Shown here piece after piece: positions 2,271-24,622 of a stretch of 38,432 nt of DNA. The position numbers and the translations under genes are program-made. Below the pieces are notes generated by a model. The model had not been told where the DNA came from. It did not search any database and worked only from the letters and a program-made list of their open reading frames with translations. The stretch is from an uncultured Chlorobiaceae bacterium (GTDB lineage: Bacteria; Bacteroidota; Chlorobiia; Chlorobiales; Chlorobiaceae): NCBI GenBank assembly GCA_903920215.1, contig CAIXLG010000092.1, positions 1 to 38,432 on the forward strand, read 5' to 3'. Positions within the stretch are counted from its first letter, which is position 1; each line of letters begins with the position of its first letter.

Positions 2271-3881
2271 TTAAGCCTGAGAAGTTTTTTCTGGCTGGGG
2301 TGCTGAAGCTTTGAGGGTGAAGAGGTGATAGTTCATGCTGTCCTGAAGAGCCTGTAGGCTTGCTTCGATTATATTTGTCGATACCCCGACAGTACCCCAG
2401 GTAAAGCGACCATTGCTTGACTCAATTAATACTCGCACTTTTGCGCTTGTACCCCTTTTTTCTTCAAGAACCCGGACTTTGTAGTCAACCAGTTTGATGC
2501 TCTTGATTTCAGGATAGAAATGGATTAACGCCTTGCGAAGTGCTTTGTCGAGGGCGTTGACGGGGCCGTCTCCGTCGGCGGCAATATGTTCGATCTCTTC
2601 TCCAACCTTCACCTTGAGAACAGCCTGATCGACATTTTTAGCATTTTTGCTCGATTCAATATGAACTTTGGTCTCAAGGACTTCAAAGAACGGGTTGAAA
2701 TTGCCCAGTTCCCTGTGCAGGATCAGCTCAAAAGAAGCTTCAGCCCCGTCGAACTGGTAACCTTCGTGTTCGAGCTCTTTAATTTGGTGGACAATATTTT
2801 TAAAAACTGCACTTTTTTCCGGTATGCTGATGCCAAGCTCGTGGGCTTTGTAGCGGATGTTGCTTTGGCCTGCAAGCTCTGAAACGAGAACCCTTTGGCG
2901 GTTTCCTACAAGTGCGGGGTCGATATGCTCGTAGAGGGAGCTCTCTTTCATGACGGCGCTGACGTGGATGCCGCCTTTGTGGGCAAAGGCTGATTTTCCG
3001 ACAAAGGGAGCTCTGGTATTCGATGGCATATTCAATATTTCATAGACAAACTTCGAGAGAGAAGTCAGCTGATTGAGATGCTGCACGAAGGAGAATGACC
3101 GCTGAAGCTTCAGCATGATATTGGGGATAATGCTGATAAGGTTGGCGTTGCCGCATCGTTCCCCAATGCCGTTGATGGTGCCCTGTATATGAGTTGCACC
3201 AGCTTTGACTGCAGCTATGGTATTAGCAACAGCCAGATCGCTGTCGTTGTGGCTATGGATACCTACCTGCACTCCTGTAATGGCAAGTACCTGTGCGACG
3301 GCTTCGGTAACTTCGTGGGGCAGGGAGCCTCCGTTGGTGTCGCAGAGGACGATTCGTGAGGTTCCGCCCTGAACGGCTGAGAGCAGCATTTTCAGTGAAA
3401 ACTCACGGTCGTCTTTGAAGCCGTCGAAAAAATGCTCGGCATCAAAAAAGACTTCCCGTCCCTCGGCCTTCAGGAAAGCGACAGAACGGTAGATCAGTTC
3501 CGCATTCTCATCGTCGGAGATGCCGAGGCTTTTTACGGAGTGGGCTTTCCATGTTTTTCCAAAGATCGTGATGACCGGGGTTTCAGATTGAAGCAAACCG
3601 AGCAGATTAGGATCGCTTTCAACGGTTGCTACCGTTCTGGCAGTCGAACCGAATGAGCAGAGTTTTGCATTCTTGAGTTTAAGAAGTCGGGCCTTTATGA
3701 AAAACTCTTCGTCTTTTGGATTACTGCTCGGCCATCCACCTTCAATGTAGTCCATGCCAAACTCATCGAGCTTTTCAGCAATAAGAAGTTTGTCCTGTAC
3801 CGACAGGTTGATATGCTCACCTTGAGTGCCATCACGCAGAGTGGTGTCGTAAAGCTCAATTGGCTTTGTGGTAACAGTCAT
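2271..3881 (-). CDS. cimA: (R)-citramalate synthase
   Basis: A 536-residue member of the citramalate synthase branch of the isopropylmalate/homocitrate synthase family. The TIM barrel opens with [19 protein letters not shown], with the metal-binding [13 protein letters not shown] motif in mid-barrel; the C-terminal region (from about residue 400) is the LeuA-type dimer/allosteric domain. CimA condenses pyruvate with acetyl-CoA to citramalate, which LeuCD and LeuB can turn into 2-oxobutyrate for isoleucine. It is the last gene of the operon, 3 bp after leuD, which supports co-expression with the enzymes that use its product. Confusion with LeuA is unlikely because a separate leuA lies at 5789-7357 and the GTQGEH signature is typical of CimA. 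Confidence 0.92.
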
Positions 3882-3884
3882 AAA

Positions 3885-4451
3885 TCAGCTCTGTGCCATT
3901 AAATTTTCCTGCCTTGCATAAGCGAAAATACCACCGGCCTCAACGATGCTGAATACATCACCAAGGGGATTGAGTGTATAGGTGACCTTACGGGTCAGGT
4001 TTTCAATGGTGTTGAGTGTGACATCGATTTTCAGCTCATCACCGGTGTTGATAAGTTGATTAAGGTGCTCTGAGGTTTCGTAGGGAATAAGAAAACCGCC
4101 ATCAACAGAGTTGCGGTAAAAAATTCTTGCGTAAGACTCAGCAATAATGGCTTTAATTCCAGCCACCTTAAGAGCGAAGGGAGCATGCTCTCTTGATGAG
4201 CCGCAGCCGAAGTTTGGCCCGGCTATGATAATGGTAAATTCCGAACCAAAACTTCCTTCCTCGATGAACGGAATATTGCCCTCGGGAAGTCCGCCCTGTT
4301 CTGGTGGCACGCCCGAAAGGGCATACTTTCCGTATAATTTTACCTCTTCAGGATTTGAGAGGCTGTACACAAGATGCTCGGCCGGAATGATCTGGTCGGT
4401 ATCGATATTTTTGCCTAAAACATAGGCTTTTCCTTGAATGACTTTTTCCAT
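3885..4451 (-). CDS. leuD: 3-isopropylmalate dehydratase, small subunit
   Basis: A 188-residue swivel-domain subunit. It opens with GKAYVLGKNIDTDQIIPAEHL and has the FGCGSSREHAP motif that contacts substrate. It pairs with LeuC (36 bp upstream) to isomerise 2-isopropylmalate to 3-isopropylmalate. Its position between leuC and cimA suggests it also handles citramalate, as known for this promiscuous family. Length is close to the shorter archaeal-type LeuD, matching the shorter LeuC type beside it. Confidence 0.93.
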   Translation of the reverse strand: MEKVIQGKAYVLGKNIDTDQIIPAEHLVYSLSNPEEVKLYGKYALSGVPPEQGGLPEGNIPFIEEGSFGSEFTIIIAGPNFGCGSSREHAPFALKVAGIKAIIAESYARIFYRNSVDGGFLIPYETSEHLNQLINTGDELKIDVTLNTIENLTRKVTYTLNPLGDVFSIVEAGGIFAYARQENLMAQS

Positions 4452-4487: not shown

Positions 4488-5783
4488 TCAGAGAAAATCT
4501 CTCGGATCGGTGAGTTTTCCAGTAATTGCCGATGCAGCAGCTGTGAGCGGCGAAGCAAGGTATACCCCTGCGTGTTTACTGCCCATCCGGCCTGGGAAGT
4601 TACGGTTGGTTGTCGACACAACGACATCATTGTCAACCGAACGTCCAACCGTATCAGCAGGGCCGCCAAGGCATGCTGCGCATGAAGGGAGCGCAATGCT
4701 GCATCCCGCATCCTCAAAGATCTGCTTGAGAGTTTGGCCGTCGTAGCGCTCATGCTCGAGGTCGAGGGCGACTTTGACGGTTGCCGGTACAATGTTGGTG
4801 GTGACCGACACTTTTTGACCCTTCAGGATTTTTGCTGCCATCATGAAGTCGGTGAGTTTGCCGCCGGTGCACGAACCGATATACGATTTGGTGATTTTCG
4901 TCCCCTGAACACTTCTGACTGTGGCTCGGTTATCAGGGCTGTGCGGCTGGGCGACAACTGGTTCGAGTTTACGGACATCATAACTATACTTGCTATGGTA
5001 TTTTGCATCCGGATCGCTTCTGAAGAGTTCATAAGGCTTGTTGCTTCGTGCCTTTACATAGCGTTCAGTGACCTCATCGGCAGCAATGATGCCGTTCATG
5101 CCGCCTCCTTCGATAGCCATGTTTGTAAGAGTCATTCTCTCTTCCATTGGAAGCGAAAAAATTGCCTCACCATCGAACTCCATGGCGCGGTAAGTAGCAC
5201 CATCAGTGGTGATGTCGCCGAGAATCTGAAGAATAAGGTCTTTTGCCGTAAGGTATTCAGGCATGGTTCCCTCAAAAGTGAATTTCATCGATTCCGGAAC
5301 TTTTTCCCATAGTTTCCCGGTACCGAGAATGAACGCAGCATCTGTATTGCCGATTCCTGTACCGAACATACCGAATGCACCTGATGTACAGGTATGAGAG
5401 TCTGTACCAAAGAGTACCGTTCCGGGTAGGTTAAATCCTTCTTCAGCAAGTGCGACATGACAGACGCCTTTGTATCGGTCGGAACCTACATCATAGTAGT
5501 GCTCAAGGCCCTGTTCTTTTGCAAACTGCCTTAAGAGATCAATGTTGCGATGGGCATGTTCATTAGCTGTAAAAATATAGTGGTCCGGAAGAACGACAAT
5601 TTTCTTTGGGTCCCATACTTTTGCGGTAGCGCCGAACTCTTCTTTGAATATATCAAAGGTAGGCGGCCCGCAGACATCATGGGTAAGCAGGATATCGACA
5701 TTCAGCCAGACGCTTTCACCCGCGTCGACAAATGTTCTGTTTGCTGCCTTGGAAAGGATTTTTTGGGTTATTGTTTGTGCCAT
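4488..5783 (-). CDS. leuC: 3-isopropylmalate dehydratase, large subunit
   Basis: A 431-residue aconitase-superfamily catalytic subunit of the short (HacA/LeuC2-like) type. The [4Fe-4S] cluster ligands are seen in IGSCTGG and in PSCAACLGG near the C-terminus; the substrate-side segments DHYIFTANEHAHRN and FGTDSHTCTSGAFGMFGTGIG are intact. It acts with LeuD in leucine synthesis and probably in the citramalate route to isoleucine. It starts 5 bp after the leuA stop. Confidence 0.94.
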   Translation of the reverse strand: MAQTITQKILSKAANRTFVDAGESVWLNVDILLTHDVCGPPTFDIFKEEFGATAKVWDPKKIVVLPDHYIFTANEHAHRNIDLLRQFAKEQGLEHYYDVGSDRYKGVCHVALAEEGFNLPGTVLFGTDSHTCTSGAFGMFGTGIGNTDAAFILGTGKLWEKVPESMKFTFEGTMPEYLTAKDLILQILGDITTDGATYRAMEFDGEAIFSLPMEERMTLTNMAIEGGGMNGIIAADEVTERYVKARSNKPYELFRSDPDAKYHSKYSYDVRKLEPVVAQPHSPDNRATVRSVQGTKITKSYIGSCTGGKLTDFMMAAKILKGQKVSVTTNIVPATVKVALDLEHERYDGQTLKQIFEDAGCSIALPSCAACLGGPADTVGRSVDNDVVVSTTNRNFPGRMGSKHAGVYLASPLTAAASAITGKLTDPRDFL

Positions 5784-5788
5784 TGTTT

Positions 5789-7357
5789 TTAAACCTCGCT
5801 GTCTATGGTTTCAGGAGTGTTATTTTCAAAATGATGCTGACGCATACCAAGAGCTTGCAAATAAGCTTTGGCGCTTGCTTCTATAATATCTGTCGAAATT
5901 CCTCTTCCGTTAAAAAAACTGTTGTTGTCTCTGATCCTTACCAGTGCTTCACCAAGAGCCTGACGGCCTGCGGTGGTTGAACGAACAGAGTAAGAGTTAA
6001 CCAATGACTCCAATCCAAGAGCCCTTTCTATAGCTCTGAAGCAGGCATCAACGGGGCCATCTCCAGTCGCGGACTCTTCGAATACCTGGGCGTTGTGCCT
6101 GATCCTTACGGTTGCGGTTGGAATGGAGGCCGTGCCGCTGTTGATATGAAGATAGTCAAGCTCATAAGCGTTCCGTGGTTTACTTCGCTCATCACCCATT
6201 AATACTCTTAAGTCATCATCATACACTTCTTTCTTTTTATCGGCAATATCGACAAAACGCTTGTACACCGTTTCAAGTTCTGTGTCCTGTAGATCATAGC
6301 CGAGAGCATGAAGTCGGGATTGCAGGCCATGCTTACCTGAATGGCGACCGAGAACGATGTTCGTTTGCGGCACACCGACTGATTCCGGGGTCATTACTTC
6401 ATAGGTATGCCGGTTTTTCAGCATTCCGTCCTGATGAATACCGGATTCGTGTGAAAATGCATTGTCGCCGATAATAGCCTTGTTGGGCTGTATGATGATA
6501 CCGGTGAAGGTGGAAACCATCCGGCTTGTATTGTACAGCTCTTCAGTTACGATACCGGTATAGAAGTTGTGCAGGTCACTGCGGACTTTCAGTGCCATGA
6601 CAATCTCTTCGAGGGAGGCATTGCCGGCACGCTCTCCAATGCCGTTCATGGAACACTCTACCTGTCGTGCCCCATGTTCAATGGCACTGAGCGTGTTTGC
6701 TACGGCAAGGCCGAGGTCGTTATGGCAATGCACACTGATAATCGCATCACCGATATTCTGTACACAGTTGTGAAGATCAGCTATTTTTTTGCCGAACTCA
6801 GAAGGCCAGGTATAACCGGTAGTGTCAGGGATATTCACTGTTGTTGCACCCGCACCAATTACAGCTTCAATTATTTCAGCCAGATAACCTTGATCGGTAC
6901 GACCGGCATCTTCAGCGGAAAACTCAATATCAGGTGTAAATGTTTTGGCGAAGCTGACAGCATCTACAGCCATCTTCAATATGGTCTGACGCTTCTCCTT
7001 AAGAGTGACTCCGTAACGGTCGCTGCCGAATTTTCCGGCAATGTGGATGTCAGAAGTGCCGATGAAGGTGTGAATGCGAGGCTTTTGAGCCAGGCTGAGT
7101 GCTTTCCATGCTGCAGTGATATCGCTCTGAACCGCTCTGGCCAAAGCAGCCACAATAGCAGAGGACTCAGACCCTACCCGTTGAACGGCTTCAAACTGAA
7201 GAGGAGAGGAGGCAGGGAAGCCTGCTTCTATTACGTCAACCCCAAGTTTTTCAAGCTGCCGGGCAATCTCAACCTTCTCTTGTACATTCAGAGCTGCACC
7301 AGGGGACTGCTCCCCATCACGCAGTGTTGTATCGAATACAAGGATTTTTTCTTTCAC
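5789..7357 (-). CDS. leuA: 2-isopropylmalate synthase
   Basis: A 522-residue LeuA. The barrel starts with VFDTTLRDGEQSPGAALN, the metal site is HCHNDLGLAVANT, and HESGIHQDGMLKNRHTYE is the conserved subdomain helix. The C-terminal 120 residues form the leucine-sensing dimer domain with the GDGPVDACFRAIERA motif. It condenses acetyl-CoA with 2-oxoisovalerate, the committed step to leucine, and is usually feedback-inhibited by leucine. It lies 23 bp after leuB and 5 bp before leuC in the operon. Confidence 0.95.
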   Translation of the reverse strand: MKEKILVFDTTLRDGEQSPGAALNVQEKVEIARQLEKLGVDVIEAGFPASSPLQFEAVQRVGSESSAIVAALARAVQSDITAAWKALSLAQKPRIHTFIGTSDIHIAGKFGSDRYGVTLKEKRQTILKMAVDAVSFAKTFTPDIEFSAEDAGRTDQGYLAEIIEAVIGAGATTVNIPDTTGYTWPSEFGKKIADLHNCVQNIGDAIISVHCHNDLGLAVANTLSAIEHGARQVECSMNGIGERAGNASLEEIVMALKVRSDLHNFYTGIVTEELYNTSRMVSTFTGIIIQPNKAIIGDNAFSHESGIHQDGMLKNRHTYEVMTPESVGVPQTNIVLGRHSGKHGLQSRLHALGYDLQDTELETVYKRFVDIADKKKEVYDDDLRVLMGDERSKPRNAYELDYLHINSGTASIPTATVRIRHNAQVFEESATGDGPVDACFRAIERALGLESLVNSYSVRSTTAGRQALGEALVRIRDNNSFFNGRGISTDIIEASAKAYLQALGMRQHHFENNTPETIDSEV

Positions 7358-7380: not shown

Positions 7381-8439
7381 TCAAGCGCCCAGATGCCTGA
7401 CAATTGCCTCTGTCATAACTGTTGTTGAAACTGCGATCTCTCCTGGATTTGCTATGTCTGCTGTTCGCAGGCCTGAAGCAAGAGTTGCCTCAATTGCCTG
7501 ATAAATCTCCCGAGCAATGTCCGGCAAAGAGAAACTATAGTCAAACATCATCGCTACAGATGCGATTGTGGCAATGGGGTTTGCCTTGTTTTGTCCTGCA
7601 ATATCAGGAGCACTGCCGTGTATTGGCTCGTACAATGCATGGCTTTTTCCAATGCTTGCAGATGGAAGCATACCAAGACTTCCGGTTATCATACCAGCGA
7701 TATCACTTAAGATATCACCAAAAAGGTTGCTGGTGACGATGACATCGAATTGCTTCGGATTCCGTACAATCTGCATTGCAGCATTGTCCACATACATATC
7801 GCTCAACTCAACATCCGCAAAATCCTTATGGACTTCATGAACCACATTTCTCCAGAACTGTGATACTTCAAGGACGTTTGCCTTATCGATAGAAATTACT
7901 TTTTTGTCGCGTTTCCGTGCCTCTTCAAACGCCAGACGAGCAATACGCTCAACTTCGAAGCGCTCATACACCATGGTGTTCCAGCCCTTATTTTCATCAA
8001 ATCCACGCGGTTGTCCAAAATAAATACCCCCGGTCAGTTCACGGAATACTAGAAAATCAGTACCGCGGACAACCTCAGGCTTGAGCGATGAGGCACCAAG
8101 AAGTGCATCATACACTTTTGCAGGTCTGAGGTTGGCAAACAGCCCCAGCTCTTTGCGGATTTTGAGCAGTGCAGCTTCAGGTTTATGGTCATGCGGCAGC
8201 GATTCCCATTTCGGACCGCCAACAGCGCCAAGCAGAACTGCATCACAGTTTTTGCAGGCCTCAAGCGTAGCATCGGTGAGCATCTCTCCATGAAGATCAT
8301 AAGAAGCCCCCCCGAAAGGATGCTCCTCAATCACTATTTCAAAGCCATGTTTCTTTGAGAGCTGTTTAAGTACTGCAACAGCTCCTGCAACTACTTCCGG
8401 GCCAATGCCATCACCCGGTATTGATACTATCTTATACAT
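7381..8439 (-). CDS. leuB: 3-isopropylmalate dehydrogenase
   Basis: A 352-residue beta-decarboxylating dehydrogenase. It begins with YKIVSIPGDGIGPEVV and carries the family segments DSSNVLE-like (DKANVLEVSQFWR), DMYVDNAAMQIVRNP and GSAPDIAGQNKANPIATI, the last forming the NAD site. It oxidises 3-isopropylmalate to 2-oxoisocaproate and, with citramalate-derived 3-methylmalate, gives 2-oxobutyrate. It sits between ilvC (16 bp upstream) and leuA. Confidence 0.95.
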   Translation of the reverse strand: MYKIVSIPGDGIGPEVVAGAVAVLKQLSKKHGFEIVIEEHPFGGASYDLHGEMLTDATLEACKNCDAVLLGAVGGPKWESLPHDHKPEAALLKIRKELGLFANLRPAKVYDALLGASSLKPEVVRGTDFLVFRELTGGIYFGQPRGFDENKGWNTMVYERFEVERIARLAFEEARKRDKKVISIDKANVLEVSQFWRNVVHEVHKDFADVELSDMYVDNAAMQIVRNPKQFDVIVTSNLFGDILSDIAGMITGSLGMLPSASIGKSHALYEPIHGSAPDIAGQNKANPIATIASVAMMFDYSFSLPDIAREIYQAIEATLASGLRTADIANPGEIAVSTTVMTEAIVRHLGA

Positions 8440-8455: not shown

Positions 8456-9448
8456 TTATTTTTTGATCAGCCAGCTCATCATGTTGCGAAGCTTAGCCCC
8501 TACCGTTTCAATTGAATGGTTACGGTTATCCTCTCTGAGCTTGTTCAGTAGTTTGGAGCCGCCATTGCATTCGTCAATGAACTCCTTGGCAAAACGACCA
8601 TCCTGGACCTCTTCAAGAATCTTTTTCATCTCAGCCTTTACAGCAGGAGTGATAAGGCGCGGTCCGCGGGTCATGCCGCCGTACTCAGCAGTATCGCTCA
8701 CTGAATAGTTCATTCTCGAAAGGCCTCCTTCATAATAAAGGTCGACAATCAGTTTCAACTCGTGCATACATTCAAAGTAGGCAAGTTCTTCAGGGTAACC
8801 GGCCTCGACAAGGGTCTCAAAACCGGCCTTGATAAGCTCAGCTGAACCACCGCAGAGGACTGCCTGTTCACCGAAGAGATCGGTTTCAGTTTCATTTTTG
8901 ATAGAGGTCTCAATAACGCCGGCCTTGGTACCGCCAAGAGCTTTAGCCCAGGCAAGTGCCTGCTGTTTTGCCTCTCCGGTGGCATCCTGATGGACGGCGA
9001 TAAGGCAGGGAACGCCATTGCCCTGGGTAAAGGTGCGGCGTACAAGGTGACCAGGGCTTTTAGGAGCGATCATGATAACGTTGACGGTCTCATCCGGAAT
9101 GATCTGCTTGTAATGGATATTGAAGCCATGAGCGAAAGCAAGGGTATTGCCTGGTACAAGGTTTGGAGCAATTTCAGAATCATAAATTGCCTTCTGTGTC
9201 TGGTCAGGAAGAAGTACCATAACGATGTCAGCCCATTTGACAACTTCCGGAACGGTATCGACCTCCAGTCCAGCCTCTCTTGCTTTGAGAGAGGATGAGC
9301 TGTCGGCACGAAGACCTACGCGTACATTCAGGCCGCTATCTTTCAGGTTGAGGGCATGGGCGTGGCCTTGGCTGCCGTAACCGAGTATTGCAATATTCTT
9401 TCCCAGGAGATAACCTAAATCGGCATCCTTATCGTAATAAACATTCAT
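8456..9448 (-). CDS. ilvC: Ketol-acid reductoisomerase, class I
   Basis: A 330-residue class I (short) ketol-acid reductoisomerase. The Rossmann motif is [17 protein letters not shown], followed by the cofactor-specificity loop VGLRADSSS, whose serines suggest NADPH preference. The knotted C-terminal domain contains [10 protein letters not shown] and the acidic metal ligands of the [11 protein letters not shown] region. It isomerises and reduces acetolactate and acetohydroxybutyrate, serving valine, leucine and isoleucine. It follows ilvN by 39 bp. Confidence 0.96.
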
Positions 9449-9487: not shown

Positions 9488-9964
9488 TCACTCTCCACGG
9501 TGTATTGCAACAGCGCCTGATCGGGCTAACTCCTTTATTCCGTAGGGTTTGAAGATATCAATAGTTGTGTTGATTTTATCCGGTGAACCGATGACCTCAA
9601 TAGTAATGGATTTTTGTTTTATATCCACGACTTTTCCTTTAAAAACATTGATAAGTTCGAAAATCTCATGCTGCTGTGTTTTGCTGAGTTTCAAAGTCAT
9701 CAAAAGCAGTTCCCGCTCAACATGCGGTTGCTTTGTCAGATCGGTCACTTTAATGGTATCAACAAGTCTGTTCAACTGCTTGATGACCTGATTGATGATC
9801 TGATCATCCGCAAAGGTCACAATGGTCATGCGTGAAATTTCAGGGTACTCTGTTTCACCGATTGAAATGCTTGCCAGATTAAACCCACGGGCGCTGAACA
9901 TTGTAGCAACCCTGTTCAGGGTTCCAAACTTGTTTTCAACGAGTACTGATATGATGTGTTTCAT
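9488..9964 (-). CDS. ilvN: Acetolactate synthase, small (regulatory) subunit
   Basis: A 158-residue regulatory subunit with an N-terminal ACT domain (MKHIISVLVENKFGTLNRVATMFSARGFNLASISIG) and the usual C-terminal ALS_ss domain. It binds the catalytic subunit IlvB and confers valine feedback. It normally follows ilvB directly, but here a 1-kb block with a DUF805/SHOCT gene (10085-10834) lies between them. The ATG at 9962-9964 is the natural start. Confidence 0.94.
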   Translation of the reverse strand: MKHIISVLVENKFGTLNRVATMFSARGFNLASISIGETEYPEISRMTIVTFADDQIINQVIKQLNRLVDTIKVTDLTKQPHVERELLLMTLKLSKTQQHEIFELINVFKGKVVDIKQKSITIEVIGSPDKINTTIDIFKPYGIKELARSGAVAIHRGE

Positions 9965-10080: not shown

Positions 10081-10107
10081 TCTTTCATCGTTTAAAAAGA
10101 TGAAAGA
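10081..10107. repeat. 9-bp inverted repeat at the 3' end of the DUF805 gene
   Basis: TCTTTCATC at 10081-10089 pairs perfectly with GATGAAAGA at 10099-10107 across a 9-nt loop. It overlaps the stop codon of the DUF805/SHOCT gene and is AU-rich, so it is a weak terminator or mRNA end structure at best. Confidence 0.4.
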
Positions 10108-10834
10108 TTTTGTTGGTATAACTGTTGGCGATTTTGATGCGTCTCGATTGATGAGATTCATTTAAAAGTCTATCGTAGAGCTCTTTTTTCTTTTTCTCAT
10201 ATTCGGCTTGAGTAAATATCCCGTCTATTACCAGCTTATCCAGGTTATCTAAAATTGGTTTTGCAATTTTATCAACCTCCTCCTTTCGAATAAGCAAATC
10301 CGTTTTCTCATTATACTCTCTTTCCTGTATATCTAACAAGGCATTTTTCTCATTATATTCATCTTCACTGATAAGCCCGTCAAGTTTGGATTTTCTCAGT
10401 AAATTTCTTGTTTCGATATATGGATGTTCTCCTTGCTTTGAACTTAGATAATGATCGTTAATATTATCTCTGGTGTCTCGATTTCTATTATTACCAGATC
10501 TTTTTGGATGAACACCATATTCGTTTCGAGTCAAATCGCCTTTTTTAAGGAATAAAAAAAAGCAAAAAAAAGGGATTAATTGCCACCACATACTTAAACT
10601 TATATCATGACACCTTTTTGCCCCCTGAGCAAAATAAAAGAAAGTAAACGGCGCACATGCAATCGTGGATATCCAATAAACAACCCCACCATAAGTGTCT
10701 TTACTTATACGCTCCGCAAGAATATAAGTGACTATACTATACATTATTAAGACCCCTGCGGAAAATATGAGGAAACTTAAAAAATATTCCCGCCTGTTAA
10801 TTCTCCCTTCAAATGAAAAAACGGATTTAAACAT
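10085..10834 (-). CDS. DUF805 membrane protein with two SHOCT-like motifs
   Basis: A 249-residue protein. Residues 1-110 match the DUF805 pattern: FSFEGRINRREYFLSF opening, hydrophobic segments near 20-40, 50-70 and 84-97, the conserved AKRCHDISLSMWW loop, and the closing NEYGVHP. After a polar linker come two short SHOCT-like helical hairpins: LLRKSKLDGLISEDEYNEK (about 145-163) and LDKLVIDGIFTQAEYEKKK (about 199-217), separated by a charged helix. Function is unknown; SHOCT units are thought to be oligomerisation modules. The gene is visibly more AT-rich than its neighbours and separates ilvB from ilvN in an otherwise tight operon, which suggests a later insertion. Whether it depends on the operon promoter is unclear, because a hairpin (10901-10934) precedes it. 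Confidence 0.8.
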   Translation of the reverse strand: MFKSVFSFEGRINRREYFLSFLIFSAGVLIMYSIVTYILAERISKDTYGGVVYWISTIACAPFTFFYFAQGAKRCHDISLSMWWQLIPFFCFFLFLKKGDLTRNEYGVHPKRSGNNRNRDTRDNINDHYLSSKQGEHPYIETRNLLRKSKLDGLISEDEYNEKNALLDIQEREYNEKTDLLIRKEEVDKIAKPILDNLDKLVIDGIFTQAEYEKKKKELYDRLLNESHQSRRIKIANSYTNKIFHLFKR

Positions 10835-10975: not shown

Positions 10976-12718
10976 TCAAACCATTGTTTTCGGGTTTAAT
11001 CTCGCCAGAAGCATATCCGAAATTGAGCCACCTGCCGGGACCATAGGAAAAACCATATCTTTTTTCATAACCCTGAAATCAACAAGTACCGGTCCTTCAT
11101 TATAGGCAAGTGCCTCTTTGATAGCTGCTTTTGCCGATTCAGGTGTATCAGCCAGGAGAGCCTTGCAATTAAACGCTTCGGCAACCTTGACAAAGTCAGG
11201 GTTGCTTTCGGCAAGATCGGTAAATGAGTATTTTTCTTTATGGAACAGCTCCTGCCATTGGCGGACCATCCCGAGAAAGCTGTTATTGATCAGGAATATC
11301 TTAATCGGTGTTTTATAGTGAACAGCAGTGACAAGTTCCTGAATATTCATCATAATCCCGCCATCTCCACAGAACAGGACGACTGGACGATCGCTGATGC
11401 CGAAAGCAGCGCCGATGGCCGCAGGCAGACCGAACCCCATGGTGCCGAGTCCACCGCTGGTGATGATGGAACGCGGATTGCGGAATGTATAATATTGCGA
11501 TGTCCACATCTGATGCTGGCCAACATCGGTTACCACGACAGCATTTCCTTCTGTTTGTCTCGACACCTCATCGATAACAAATTCGGTTCTCAGAGCACCA
11601 TCTTCCTTGTTGTAAGTCAAAGGGCACTGTTTACGCCATGACTGGATATCCGCAAGCCAGCTATCGCGATTTTCTACCGTTTTCGGTGTCTCTTTCAGGA
11701 GCGTAGCCAGAAAGTCTTTGGCGTCGCCAACAATCGGCAAGTCCACCATGATGTTTTTATCAACATTGGTAGGATCAATGTCATTGTGAATGATGTAGGC
11801 ATCGGGAGCAAATGTTTCAATTTTTCCCGTGACCCTGTCATCAAATCGAGCACCGACAGCAATAAGCACATCACAGGCATTGACAGCCTGATTGGACCAG
11901 TATGTCCCGTGCATGCCAAGCATCCCCATGCTGAGCGGATGGTTGCCGGGGAAAGCTCCAAGTCCCTGCAGAGTCATGGTGACCGGTATATTCTGTTGTA
12001 TCGCAAAAGCCCGAAGCTCTTCTGATGCTTCAGCACTGATGACTCCGCCACCAACATAAAGAAGGGGGCGTTTTGCTTTGGCAATTTTATGCGCAGCTTT
12101 CTCAACCTGGTTAATGTGGCATGTGATTGTCGGCTTGAATCCACGGATTTCTACCGTTTCAGGCCAATGAAATGCGCATGATGCATTAAGAATATCTTTA
12201 GGCATATCAATCAGCACAGGTCCAGGCCTGCCATTTGTAGCAAGAAAAAATGCCTTGCGGATTGTTATGGCAAGCTCTTTGACGTCCTTGACAAGAAAAT
12301 TGTGTTTTGTTATGGATCTCGTGATCCCTACAATATCGGCTTCCTGAAAGGCGTCATTGCCAATGAGCGAGCTTGGAACCTGTCCGGTAAAGACCACCAT
12401 TGGCGACGAGTCCATATAGGCATTGGCTATGCCGGTAACGGTGTTTGTCGCACCGGGTCCCGAAGTGACAAGAACAACACCAGGTTTTCCTGTCGCGCGG
12501 GCGTATCCCTCAGCCATATGAGTCGCACCCTGCTCATGACGGACAAGAATGTGCTTGATATCCTTTATATCGTACAGAGTCTCATAAACTTTTAAGAGCG
12601 AACCGCCCGGATACCCGAAAATATATTCGACGTTTTCTCGTCGTAGACATTCGAAAAAAATTTCTGAGCCATTGAGAGTTTGGCTTGAAGAATGCATAGC
12701 GTGTTTATTTAGGTTCAC
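10976..12718 (-). CDS. ilvB: Acetolactate synthase, large (catalytic) subunit
   Basis: A 580-residue thiamine diphosphate enzyme. The N-terminal ThDP pyrimidine domain contains [15 protein letters not shown] and the catalytic glutamate in [21 protein letters not shown]; the C-terminal domain has the ThDP/Mg motif [16 protein letters not shown] ending in INN. It condenses two pyruvates, or pyruvate with 2-oxobutyrate. Its first 14 bp overlap the end of ilvD, implying translational coupling. The regulatory subunit ilvN lies 1 kb downstream rather than adjacent. Confidence 0.95.
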
Positions 12719-14402
12719 AGGTAACAGTGCTTTTCAGTATTGCCCCAGTATTGGCTGATGTGACCAGTTGAGCATACCTTGCCAGATAGCCTTTTGTTAT
12801 TTTTGGCACAAACGGCTTGAGCAGCGCCATCCGTTCAGCAATAATATCATCGGTTAAATCCACAGAGATGCTTCTGTTTGGAATATCAACAGTAATGATA
12901 TCGCCATTTTCAAGTGCAGCAATGGGACCTTTCTCTGCAGCTTCGGGCGAGATGTGACCGATACAGGCCCCTCTCGATCCCCCGGAAAACCGTCCATCAG
13001 TAATGAGCGCAACTGATTCTCCAAGCCCTCTACCCATAATGGCGCTGGTAGGGGAGAGCATTTCCGGCATTCCAGGGCCGCCTTTTGGACCCTCATAGCG
13101 AATGACAACTACATCACCGGCTTTGACATCATCCTCCATAATGCCTTTGATGGCATCATCCTGGCAGTCATAAACCTTTGCAGGGCCTGTATGTTTCATC
13201 ATTTCTGCAGCGACGGCTCCGGTTTTGACAACAGCGCCCAGTGGGGCAATATTCCCGTACAGAACTGCCAGACCACCTGAAAATGAGTAGGGCTCTTCAA
13301 CACTTCTTATGACAGATCGGTCTGTGATCTCAGCATCCGCAATATTTTCACCAAGTGTTTTTCCTGTTACCGTCAGTGCCGAAAGATCAAGAAGCCCTTC
13401 AATCTTACTGAGTTCATGAAGGATCGCCGATACTCCGCCAGCCCGGTCAACATCCTCGATGTGGACGGCCATTGTTGCAGGGCTTACCTTGCATATATAG
13501 GGTGTTTTGGCTGAAAGTGCATTGAGTTCAGAGAAATCAAAATCCAGTTCCGCTTCATTTGCAAGGGCAAGAGTATGCAGGATGGTATTGGTACTGCCAC
13601 CCATTGCAAAGTCAAGAGCAAAAGCATTCAGCAAAGCCTTGCGTGTAAGGATATCCCTCGGTCTGATATTCCTCTTTACCAGATCAATGATCCGGCGTGA
13701 AGCTTCCTGTACCAGTTCATTACGACGAGGGTCAATTGCAAGTATTGTTCCGTTGCCTGGCAGAGCAAAACCAAGGGCTTCACTGAGGCAGTTCATCGAG
13801 TTAGCTGTAAACATTCCGGAACATGAGCCGCAACCTGGGCAGGCATTGTCTTCTATGGAACCCAGTTCACTCTCGCTGATTTTTCCAGTACTGTACTGGC
13901 CTACTGCTTCAAAGACTGAAATCAGGTCAATGGTTTTTCCGGAAGGGGTATGGCCGGCCTTCATTGGCCCTCCGGAAACGAAAATAACCGGAATGTTGAT
14001 TCGAAGTGCGGCCATCATCATGCCAGGGGTGATCTTGTCACAGTTTGGTATACAGACAAGTCCATCGAGCCGGTGTGCCTCAGCAACGGTCTCGACACTG
14101 TCAGCAATAAGTTCACGGCTTGCAAGTGAGTAGCGCATGCCGATATGCCCCATAGCAATACCATCGCAAACCCCGATGGTATTGAATTCAAAGGGTACAC
14201 CCCCGGCTTTGCGAACCTCTTCTTTTGCGATTTTTCCGAGCTCCTGAAGATGGGCATGTCCCGGGATAAGTTCATTATAGGAGTTGCATATGCCTATAAA
14301 GGGTTTTCTGAAGTCATCGTTTGAGACAATTGACCCTGTGGCTTTCAGAAGACTGCGGTGAGGCGCTTTTTCAAACCCTGTTTTAATAGTATCAGATCTC
14401 AT
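12705..14402 (-). CDS. ilvD: Dihydroxy-acid dehydratase
   Basis: A 565-residue IlvD/Edd family enzyme. Likely Fe-S cysteines are in [11 protein letters not shown], in [13 protein letters not shown] (the C-D-K triad binds metal and substrate) and in [18 protein letters not shown]. It dehydrates 2,3-dihydroxy acids to the 2-oxo acids for valine, leucine and isoleucine. It is the first structural gene of the operon, preceded by a 290-bp leader containing a small ORF rich in Val/Ile/Leu codons. The start has only a weak ribosome binding site after a run of nine U residues. Confidence 0.95.
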
Positions 14403-14519
14403 TGCAGTTCAAGTATTTTTTTTTGACAATTAAAAGAAACCCCCGAGACCGCTGTTCCCGAAGCCACTGTGATGAAAAGTCTGAAAGAGAAAAAAATGGA
14501 CTTGGGATCGGCTTTGGGC
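14403..14519 (-). promoter_or_regulatory. Putative attenuator region between the leader ORF and ilvD
   Basis: On the transcribed strand this 117-nt spacer holds a segment (complement of 14463-14475) that can form a 13-bp helix, including two G-U pairs, with the Val-codon part of the leader ORF (complement of 14549-14561). A second segment just after the leader stop (CCCAAAGCC) can pair with GGCTTCGGG further down, and the two pairings overlap at one arm. The region ends in a GC-rich GGTCTCGGGGGTTTCTTTT stretch. I could not identify one unambiguous terminator stem by eye, so the mechanism is inferred. Confidence 0.45.
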
Positions 14520-14693
14520 TTAGAGCACAGCAACACTCAGTGATGAAATCACCACAGTGACAAAAATCCCGATCATGGAATGGAGGGTGTTAAGCAAATG
14601 CTTGTCATTAAAGCCGAAACCGGATGAACTCGTCAACGCAGGTTGTTCAACACCACGGCAGGAACTGCAGGTATATAAATTGAATGCAGACAT
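14520..14693 (-). CDS. Putative ilv operon leader peptide
   Basis: A 57-codon ORF from the ATG at 14691-14693 (an in-frame TTG at 14703-14705 would add four codons). Its last 18 residues read MIGIFVTVVISSLSVAVL, with five Val, three Ile and two Leu codons, immediately before the ilvD attenuator-like spacer. Leader peptides of ilv operons elsewhere use such runs to sense charged branched-chain tRNAs. It is longer than typical leaders, has no clear ribosome binding site, and could instead be a small protein with one C-terminal membrane helix. An internal ATG at the start of the run would give an 18-codon leader. Confidence 0.5.
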   Translation of the reverse strand: MSAFNLYTCSSCRGVEQPALTSSSGFGFNDKHLLNTLHSMIGIFVTVVISSLSVAVL

Positions 14694-14737
14694 TGAAGCG
14701 AACAAGTTTCTATCGGTATTAAACTGAGATTCGTAAT

Positions 14738-14766
14738 AAATTACATTTAATGTTTTATTAAAGCAA
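14738..14766 (-). promoter_or_regulatory. Candidate sigma-70-type promoter of the ilv-leu operon
   Basis: On the minus strand TTGCTT (complement of 14761-14766) and TAATTT (complement of 14738-14743) are separated by exactly 17 bp. Initiation would fall near 14731, about 38 nt before the leader ORF. The match to consensus is only partial and the area is AT-rich, so chance matches are likely. Confidence 0.35.
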
Positions 14767-14898
14767 GCATTAAAAAAGTTAAAATCCGATGGATTTTTAC
14801 TGTTTATTCTGTTGTGTTACAGTTATATTTTTAAACAATTCCGTGCTCAGTTAAGTGTCGGTTTTTTCGGACTAAACCTTCAAAAAAGTTCCACAACC

Positions 14899-23727: not shown

Positions 23728-23964
23728 TCAGTGCTCTAAACTGCTCATGCTGGTTAATTCCATAATAGAATTAAACAAGCTTTGAGGAGCCTTAAACTGA
23801 ACAATTTTTTCCTTGATGATCATTTTGGTTTTTTTGGCATCTTCAAACTCATCTCTGCACTCTTTGCACTCCGAGAGGTGTAATAGAAAGCCCTCTTCTT
23901 CCTTTACTCTTAGCTCACAATCCACGGCGGCACTCATAAGTACCTGGGCTTTTTGGCAGTTCAT
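23728..23964 (-). CDS. Zinc-finger anti-sigma factor (ZAS type)
   Basis: A 78-residue protein with Cys3 and the His29-x3-Cys33-x2-Cys36 motif (HLSECKECRDEF) of zinc-binding anti-sigma factors such as RsrA. It has no membrane helix, so it should sequester its sigma factor in the cytoplasm and release it on thiol oxidation or zinc loss. It starts 28 bp after the ECF sigma gene, the normal arrangement for a cognate pair. Confidence 0.85.
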   Translation of the reverse strand: MNCQKAQVLMSAAVDCELRVKEEEGFLLHLSECKECRDEFEDAKKTKMIIKEKIVQFKAPQSLFNSIMELTSMSSLEH

Positions 23965-23992
23965 AGTTTACAAATTTTTGAGCGTATTGATT

Positions 23993-24622
23993 TTAATGAT
24001 CTTTATCGGTATTGAATCCATATTTTTTAGCATACCCCTCAAGTTGTTCACGAAGCAGTTTTCTACCTCTATATAACCTTGATCTTACTGTTCCGATCGG
24101 GCTTTCAACCATATTTGCAATTTCTTCATAAGTAAAACCGTCAATATCACACAACTGTATCACTTCCCTGAACTCTTCAGGCAAAGAGTGAAGAGCCTGA
24201 TGTACCTCTTCATGAAGCAATGAATGGAAATAATCGCTTTCAGCTTCACTGGTATCATTCTGAACATCTTTGATAGAATGATAGAAATCCTTTATAAGAT
24301 CGTAATCGACCTTCCCCGGTTCTTTAGAATTTTTGCGAAACCGGTTGATATAATTGTTTTTCAGGATTTTAAACAGCCAAGCCTTACAGTTTGTTCCCCT
24401 CTCAAAAGAATTAAAAAATCTATACGCCTTGAGATAGGTTTCCTGTACCAGATCTTCGGCATCACTCGGATTCATGGTTAAGTGGAGCGCGTAATTATAG
24501 AGCGAATTCAGATGAACAACCGCTTCCTTTTGAAACTCGAGTTGCTTTTGACGCTCCTCCTTGGACAAAGATTCTTTTTTTGTCCTGGTTGTGGTGTTAC
24601 GGGTTGGATCGGGTTTATCCAT
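23993..24622 (-). CDS. ECF-family RNA polymerase sigma factor
   Basis: A 209-residue sigma-70 family ECF protein. Region 2 is about 33-105 ([30 protein letters not shown], then [19 protein letters not shown]); region 4 is about 140-195 ([44 protein letters not shown]). It resembles SigR/RpoE-like sigma factors paired with ZAS anti-sigmas. An N-terminal basic, Thr-rich tail of about 25 residues precedes region 2. It probably directs an oxidative or thiol-stress regulon; the target promoters are not determined here. Confidence 0.92.

Follow-up and report, generated by a model that had tools for sequence, protein, structure and literature searches.

We consider it highly likely, from sequence comparison and modelled folding, that a ribosome-mediated transcription attenuator controls the branched-chain amino acid operon of the window (the whole stretch of 38,432 nucleotides analysed, from an uncultured Chlorobiaceae bacterium). 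Comparison among relatives supported a putative attenuator through an ORF rich in Val, Ile and Leu codons (V/I/L), a covarying antiterminator, an overlapping terminator followed by a T-run, near-fixed spacing and placement before ilvD. The features of the class were found: a leader ORF with codons for the operon's amino acids and an operon that makes them, mutually exclusive antiterminator and terminator helices that share an arm, and a terminator with its T-run before the first gene. A classical trp-type 1:2 protector, which is not universal in the class, was not supported across the 79 sequences compared. The initial annotation had proposed an ilv attenuator, and this proposal gained comparative and computational support, with the leader present in 79 of 82 upstream regions and a covarying antiterminator sharing the terminator arm. 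Under this reading the whole branched-chain pathway of green sulfur bacteria would have a specific switch that can be tested, and 80 genomes supply natural variants of it.

Leader frame and gene run

The leader ORF was located from the ORF list and the comparison of relatives at 14520-14693 on the minus strand (57 codons, MSAFN...SVAVL), with an ATG at 14693, a TAA stop at 14520-14522 and a peptide ending IGIFVTVVISSLSVAVL; a longer form could start at a TTG at 14705. Its last 17 codons (14523-14573, minus strand), the presumed sensor run, contain ten V/I/L codons, exactly as first annotated; the initial annotation did not name the strand. The distance from the end of the ORF to the ilvD ATG (14402) is 117 nt, or 120 nt with the stop codon counted, and the intergenic stretch covers 14403-14811, a divergent plus-strand open frame starting at 14812 at the earliest. 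An ATG-TCT-GCA-TTC block at the leader start was conserved in an alignment of 16 sequences, the window among them. In the 79 regions the motif ATG[TGA]CNGC, located 105-240 nt before the stop, was in frame at all 40 of its occurrences; the strict start motif was present in 38 of the 79 leaders, and an ATG lay 35-80 codons before the leader stop in 77. Since the start block is conserved and the motif always in frame, the ATG at 14693 is probably the right leader start.

The alignment of 16 sequences also contained a conserved, AT-rich, promoter-like block (CTTG, 20 nt, TAATTTAT; 14736-14767, minus strand), 43-74 nt upstream of the leader ATG, which we take to resemble the Bacteroidota pattern TTTG-N(19-21)-TAnnTTTG. 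A sigma-70 scan returned no promoter.

The gene ilvD heads a run of ten co-directional genes (minus strand), ilvD-ilvB-DUF805-ilvN-ilvC-leuB-leuA-leuC-leuD-cimA, of which nine encode Val/Ile/Leu pathway enzymes or their subunits and one is the DUF805 gene; the ten-gene region mentioned in the initial annotation was thus correctly counted. Dihydroxyacid dehydratase (ilvD, 12705-14402) was named from translation, homology and position, and the acetolactate synthase large subunit (ilvB, 10976-12718) from translation and position, both without a family call. Family matches named ilvN (9488-9964), ilvC (8456-9448), leuB (7381-8439), leuA (5789-7357) and the citramalate synthase gene cimA (2271-3881). 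The products of leuC (4488-5783) and leuD (3885-4451) passed subfamily-level cut-offs only (isopropylmalate/homoaconitate type), and their names lean on context. All ten genes would presumably form one transcript; radC and then an SDR gene follow cimA in the same direction. The DUF805 gene (10085-10834), called by family match, is placed between ilvB and ilvN within the branched-chain run and encodes a SHOCT-like end (SHOCT scored just below the cut-off). Elsewhere in the window, an ECF-type sigma factor-like gene and a small anti-sigma-like gene, named by eye from their translations, are adjacent at 23728-24622 (minus strand).

Of the 98 genomes of the window's order, 84 gave an ilvD match in an IlvD search, and upstream DNA was collected from 82 of these (G067 and G068, with partial ilvD matches, were left out). 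A V/I/L-bearing ORF was present in 79 of the 82 upstream regions, with a stop codon beginning 111-133 nt ahead of the ilvD ATG and an open frame of 43-102 codons; an ORF arising by chance had been expected to be absent from relatives. Both the ORF and the RNA element were missing from three of the 82 (L034, L040 and L053, from genomes G029, G039 and G022), which were dropped from all comparative leader counts (n = 79). What these three have in common upstream of ilvD is another block, ATTATTTGTATTAATGCATGGGGTGATGTAACTTA or a near variant, together with a short frame whose peptide begins MRNSR or MRNYR.

In the 79 leaders V/I/L made up 754 of 1343 codons (56%) within the last 17 positions and 269 of 1817 (15%) at codons 18-40 before the stop; the other two frames gave 257 of 1247 and 162 of 1341. 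The mean was 9.54 V/I/L per 17 codons, against 4.32 in shuffles (top of 200 rounds, 4.91), in a comparison where the leader frame had been picked by script for the highest V/I/L count around the expected position, a choice that favours this frame and that the shuffles omit. The contrast with the shuffles and with the rest of the frame is large despite this choice. The strength of the signal comes from the 79 related leaders, not from the window alone, in which the count is only moderately unusual: of 20,000 base shuffles, 141 had no stop and at least ten V/I/L. Val, Ile and Leu interchange at leader positions -4, -6, -9, -11 and -15, as expected if any of the three residues is acceptable. The anticipated pattern of a kept V/I/L run and a variable remainder was borne out by the alignment: V/I/L are concentrated at the end, the peptide between start and end diverges freely, and ten leaders are V/I/L-poor, with 5-6 of 17 (L015, L016, L019, L022, L023, L027, L052, L056, L060 and L080). 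Seven of these ten, all save L052, L056 and L060, have a shorter end.

Helices in the spacer

The spacer before ilvD had been called structured in the initial annotation. In an alignment of the 79 sequences (A1), a 13-pair antiterminator helix joins a stretch just past the stop codon with GGCTTCGGGAACGGC. As placed by alignment and pair counts on the minus strand, its 5' arm (region 2, GCCGATCCCAAGTC) lies at 14499-14512 and its 3' arm (region 3, GGCTTCGGGAACAGC) at 14451-14465; the CTTCGGG part of region 3 doubles as the 5' arm of the terminator. Pairing was possible in 90.6% of 1025 cells (86.7% in shuffles). Double changes occurred at seven pairs, a number reached by 17 of 500 shuffles, and in 35 cells, against 9.4 in shuffles, none of the 500 reaching 35. 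Slid versions of the helix were at most 50.9% paired; the helix was found by eye in the alignment, so part of its excess over the slid versions is built in, which does not hold for the double changes. The window forms 12 of the 13 pairs, with one C-A, as judged by eye. Unaided, RNAalifold returned six pairs, four identical to the antiterminator and two shifted by one column, in an energetically weak consensus (-0.57 kcal/mol). Regions 2 and 3 hold near-invariant sequence blocks, CCCAAGTCC and GGCTTCGGGAACGGC, and the CCC of region 2 follows the end of the stop codon at a distance of 12-15 nt in 72 of 79 sequences and of 17 nt in the other seven.

The terminator hairpin (3:4, CTTCGGG/CTCGGGG) occupies 14441-14463 and is followed by the T-rich tract GTTTCTTTT at 14432-14440 (both minus strand), the former mapped by a terminator scan and pair counts and the latter by the scan and T counts in relatives. 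The scan tool reported the hairpin independently, as one hit against 0.5 expected in 651 bases. In the alignment the helix reads CTTCGGG/CCCGGAG, overlaps the 3' arm of the antiterminator and is 84.6% paired, and no covariation was found in it among the 79 sequences. A T-run (at least five T in eight bases) follows the terminator in 72 of 79 sequences, leaving seven without a clear one, and at least five A in eight were found in one.

Several further helices were considered. The window RNA alone folded no better than shuffles (z 0.43; 134 of 200 shuffles as good). The minimum-energy helix of the window, 14549-14559 with 14465-14475, was rejected as a functional structure, since relatives, L003 and L005 for example, break its pairing, as seen by eye. 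A 1:2 protector pairing the leader GGATCGG with CCGnTCC was attractive in single folds and is possible in the window and in some species of the same genus; it was rejected across the 79 sequences, where 61.7% of its cells were paired and double changes were no better than in shuffles. For 77 of the 79 sequences, treated as two groups, duplexes between the leader and region 2 did not exceed shuffled ones in strength. A hairpin within the ORF over the last 17 codons was weak (mean z -0.46, window 0.24). Support was mixed for a possible small hairpin across the stop codon (14511-14526, minus strand), four of whose five pairs are possible in the window: across the 79 sequences 61% of its cells were paired and double changes occurred in 31 cells against 11.9 in shuffles, with pairs showing double changes no more numerous than in shuffles and a mean z of -0.83 (window +1.12).

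Proposed switching and rival readings

In the proposed mechanism, RNA polymerase would make the leader while a ribosome behind it translates the 57-codon ORF. When charged Val, Ile or Leu tRNA is scarce, the ribosome would slow within the last 17 or so codons, region 2 would stay free and pair with region 3 as the antiterminator, and transcription would enter ilvD and the genes behind it. Under good supply the ribosome would reach the stop codon and cover the start of region 2, region 3 would then form the 3:4 terminator with its T-run, and transcription would end before ilvD. We infer the stalling, the termination and the direction of the response.

The switching was modelled by an edge scan, in which a left edge representing the ribosome front was moved along the RNA, from no more than 60 nt upstream of the stop codon, and the RNA beyond it was folded; edge positions were counted from the first base of that codon. 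Over the 79 sequences, the mean core probability of the antiterminator was 0.43-0.54 and that of the terminator 0.04-0.06 for edges up to +9 (0.54 and 0.06 at +9), changing to 0.02 and 0.36 at +18, all in equilibrium folding, which takes no account of which arm is made first. The predicted flip from antiterminator to terminator falls at about +15 to +17, the mean curves crossing at +15/+16. In the window the antiterminator was modelled at 0.75 and the terminator at 0.00 for edges -6 to +3, and at 0.00 and 0.86 at +18; the terminator leads from +12 on and stands at 0.85-0.86 from +17. At window edges -60 to -21 competition from other helices keeps both from forming well.

The front of a ribosome that holds the stop codon in its A site is at about +12 to +13. 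The mean crossing of the modelled curves lies a few bases beyond this bare footprint; the direction fits, though not exactly. For edges from +12 to +15, 49-55 of the 79 sequences still favour the antiterminator, so that termination may depend on kinetics or on additional clearance. An edge at -60, which represents ribosome-free RNA less the initial part of the leader, gave the antiterminator a higher probability than the terminator in 69 of 79 sequences, and if this is true in cells an untranslated leader would read through.

Three other explanations were weighed. Ribosome control might act on the translation of ilvD or through Rho and not through an intrinsic terminator, in keeping with the short, G-U-rich terminator stem of the window and its C-interrupted T-tract, the lack of covariation in the terminator and the seven sequences of 79 without a clear T-run; we consider this improbable, given that a T-run directly follows the stem in the other 72 and that the mapped helices reach only to 14441, which is 38 nt from the ilvD ATG, and so leave the ilvD ribosome-binding site uncovered. 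It is very improbable that the region is a riboswitch or a protein-binding RNA in which CCCAAGTCC and GGCTTCGGGAACGGC serve as binding sites for a ligand or protein, the ORF being of secondary importance. Regions 2 and 3 are indeed strongly conserved in sequence and not in pairing alone; region 3, however, must pair with two partners, which already limits sequence change, 79 leaders have in-frame V/I/L codons concentrated at their ends, and no Rfam family, T-box and other cis-regulatory families included, matched the window at gathering thresholds (at relaxed thresholds only chance-level matches to animal RNA families appeared).

We give hardly any credence to the leader ORF being a small hydrophobic membrane protein, with the spacer merely a promoter or terminator. 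The last 17 or so residues are hydrophobic, the frame stays open in all 79 relatives, and the peptide has a weak Pfam match to DUF1576 below the cut-off (E 0.0019, 18.2 bits against a cut-off of 25). Against this, the peptide diverges freely apart from its start and end, Pro, Gln, Arg or Ser interrupt the V/I/L end at several positions, and the nucleotide spacer downstream is by eye better conserved than the peptide. Conservation of the whole protein, named in the initial annotation as the mark of a membrane protein, was accordingly not observed.

Distribution, related systems and codon choice

A model of the spacer (R1) was built from 44 of the 79 sequences and found one site in each of 80 of the 98 genomes, in a search that scored 38 first-look candidates per genome under strict filters and may miss weak extra sites. 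By comparison of coordinates with the IlvD search, all 80 sites lie directly before ilvD; 36 of them are outside the training set, though in relatives. The genomes without a match are the three exceptions lacking the element, G068, where the start of ilvD is missing, and 14 without an ilvD match. Extending the search from the order to the class covered the same 98 genomes and gave the same 80 matches. Among the best 80 ilvD loci from many phyla, the sole R1 match was L093, a contig of a Chlorobaculum sp. MAG.

Frames rich in V/I/L (11-14 of 17) were also seen before ilvD in L094 and L107 (Bacteroidetes MAGs), L095 and L104 (Neomarinimicrobiota) and L097 (CSSED10-310), the rest of these 80 loci reaching at most 9 of 17, the score of L093 and five others. 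The five frames are possibly further, unrelated-looking ilv attenuators, to judge by their sequences; R1 misses all five, so that their RNAs, if they are attenuators, differ. A SAM riboswitch (RF00162) was noted near ilvD in L107 (681-868, minus strand). Leaders of the trp and his type were sought before trpE and hisG at 25 loci each from 26 genomes (one trpE locus, L200, partial) with crude thresholds, a short frame with at least two W or at least four H. No consistent leader was found at these thresholds before either gene: 8 of 25 trpE loci had some frame with 2-4 W, in scattered places and mutually unlike, and 1 of 25 hisG loci passed the His threshold.

Leader-peptide attenuation is shown or well supported before ilvD in Listeria (PMC5864092) and S. 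aureus (PMC5794164) and before ilvB in Corynebacterium (PMC10272879), according to the available text of these papers. The Staphylococcus aureus leader resembles the window in having a peptide with Ile and Leu codons and a terminator before an ilvD-headed ilv-leu operon, whose expression is reported to rise on Leu shortage; it differs in its 26-aa Leu-rich peptide, in a terminator 52 nt past the stop and in an antiterminator that reportedly sequesters the poly-U tail and leaves the terminator stem intact (PMC5794164). Listeria Rli60, for which the accessible account gives mutational proof, is likewise a ribosome-mediated attenuator before ilvD with two alternative structures and a 3:4 terminator, and its peptide is 13 aa long; loss of leader translation there is described as causing super-attenuation and lower ilvD, whereas here the ribosome-free RNA was predicted as antiterminator in 69 of 79 sequences (PMC5864092). 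The leaders upstream of ilvB in other lineages have a conserved uORF rich in branched-chain codons, and ilvB-II also has alternative terminator and antiterminator helices; they differ in standing before ilvB, in belonging to other lineages and in giving no Rfam match in the window. In Veillonella, WRC-18-2 is a conserved RNA before ilvD, some copies with a possible terminator; it has been reported from Veillonella alone and is presented as a weak riboswitch candidate, and the portion of the paper available mentions no leader ORF (PMC8632094).

For Chlorobia, the texts available mention hisS T-boxes (PMC2965389), report the SAM-Chlorobi, Lnt, Chlorobi-1 and Chlorobi-RRM motifs (PMC2864571) and, in a survey of leader genes, place Chlorobia among the groups with few genomes (PMC4833913). 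Among the open-paper matches listed none describes leader-peptide attenuation in Chlorobi, and the surveys by Lopatovskaya (Mol Biol 2010, 44:128) and PMC4833913 could contain a case; the main text of PMC11109978 does not mention ilvD, Chlorobi, Chlorobaculum, leader peptide or branched-chain. The remark in the initial annotation that it knew of none described for green sulfur bacteria agrees with these matches. The attenuation principle is known from other bacteria, and the Chlorobi instance, without a description among the matches listed, is very probably a switch by which a slowed ribosome turns on the whole pathway.

Codon choice was compared between two groups of leaders. In the ends of 20 leaders of the family's second genus (L058, L059, L061-L077 and L082; this genus is the one with Chlorobaculum, a member of Chlorobiaceae, order Chlorobiales), the otherwise uncommon GTA made up 95 of 104 Val codons (91%), against a background of 9.9%, 11.6% and 16.1% of Val codons in ORFs from 18-kb stretches of three genomes of that genus. 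The bias may reflect either adaptation to a scarce tRNA or, given the many GTAC repeats, RNA folding. As a natural experiment, the GUA-rich leaders of this one clade could show which tRNA is read by a switch that works through stalling. A joint reading, which we regard as speculative and rather doubtful, is that of a protector-less, default-ON attenuator retuned to GUA in the Chlorobaculum clade, where one tRNA-Val isoacceptor would gauge the whole pathway. The second-genus leaders also used CTA for 17% of their 41 Leu codons (background 0.4-0.6%). In the 57 leaders of the window's genus, GTA accounted for 23% of Val codons, as in the operon of the window (22%), and GTG was raised (37% against 13%).
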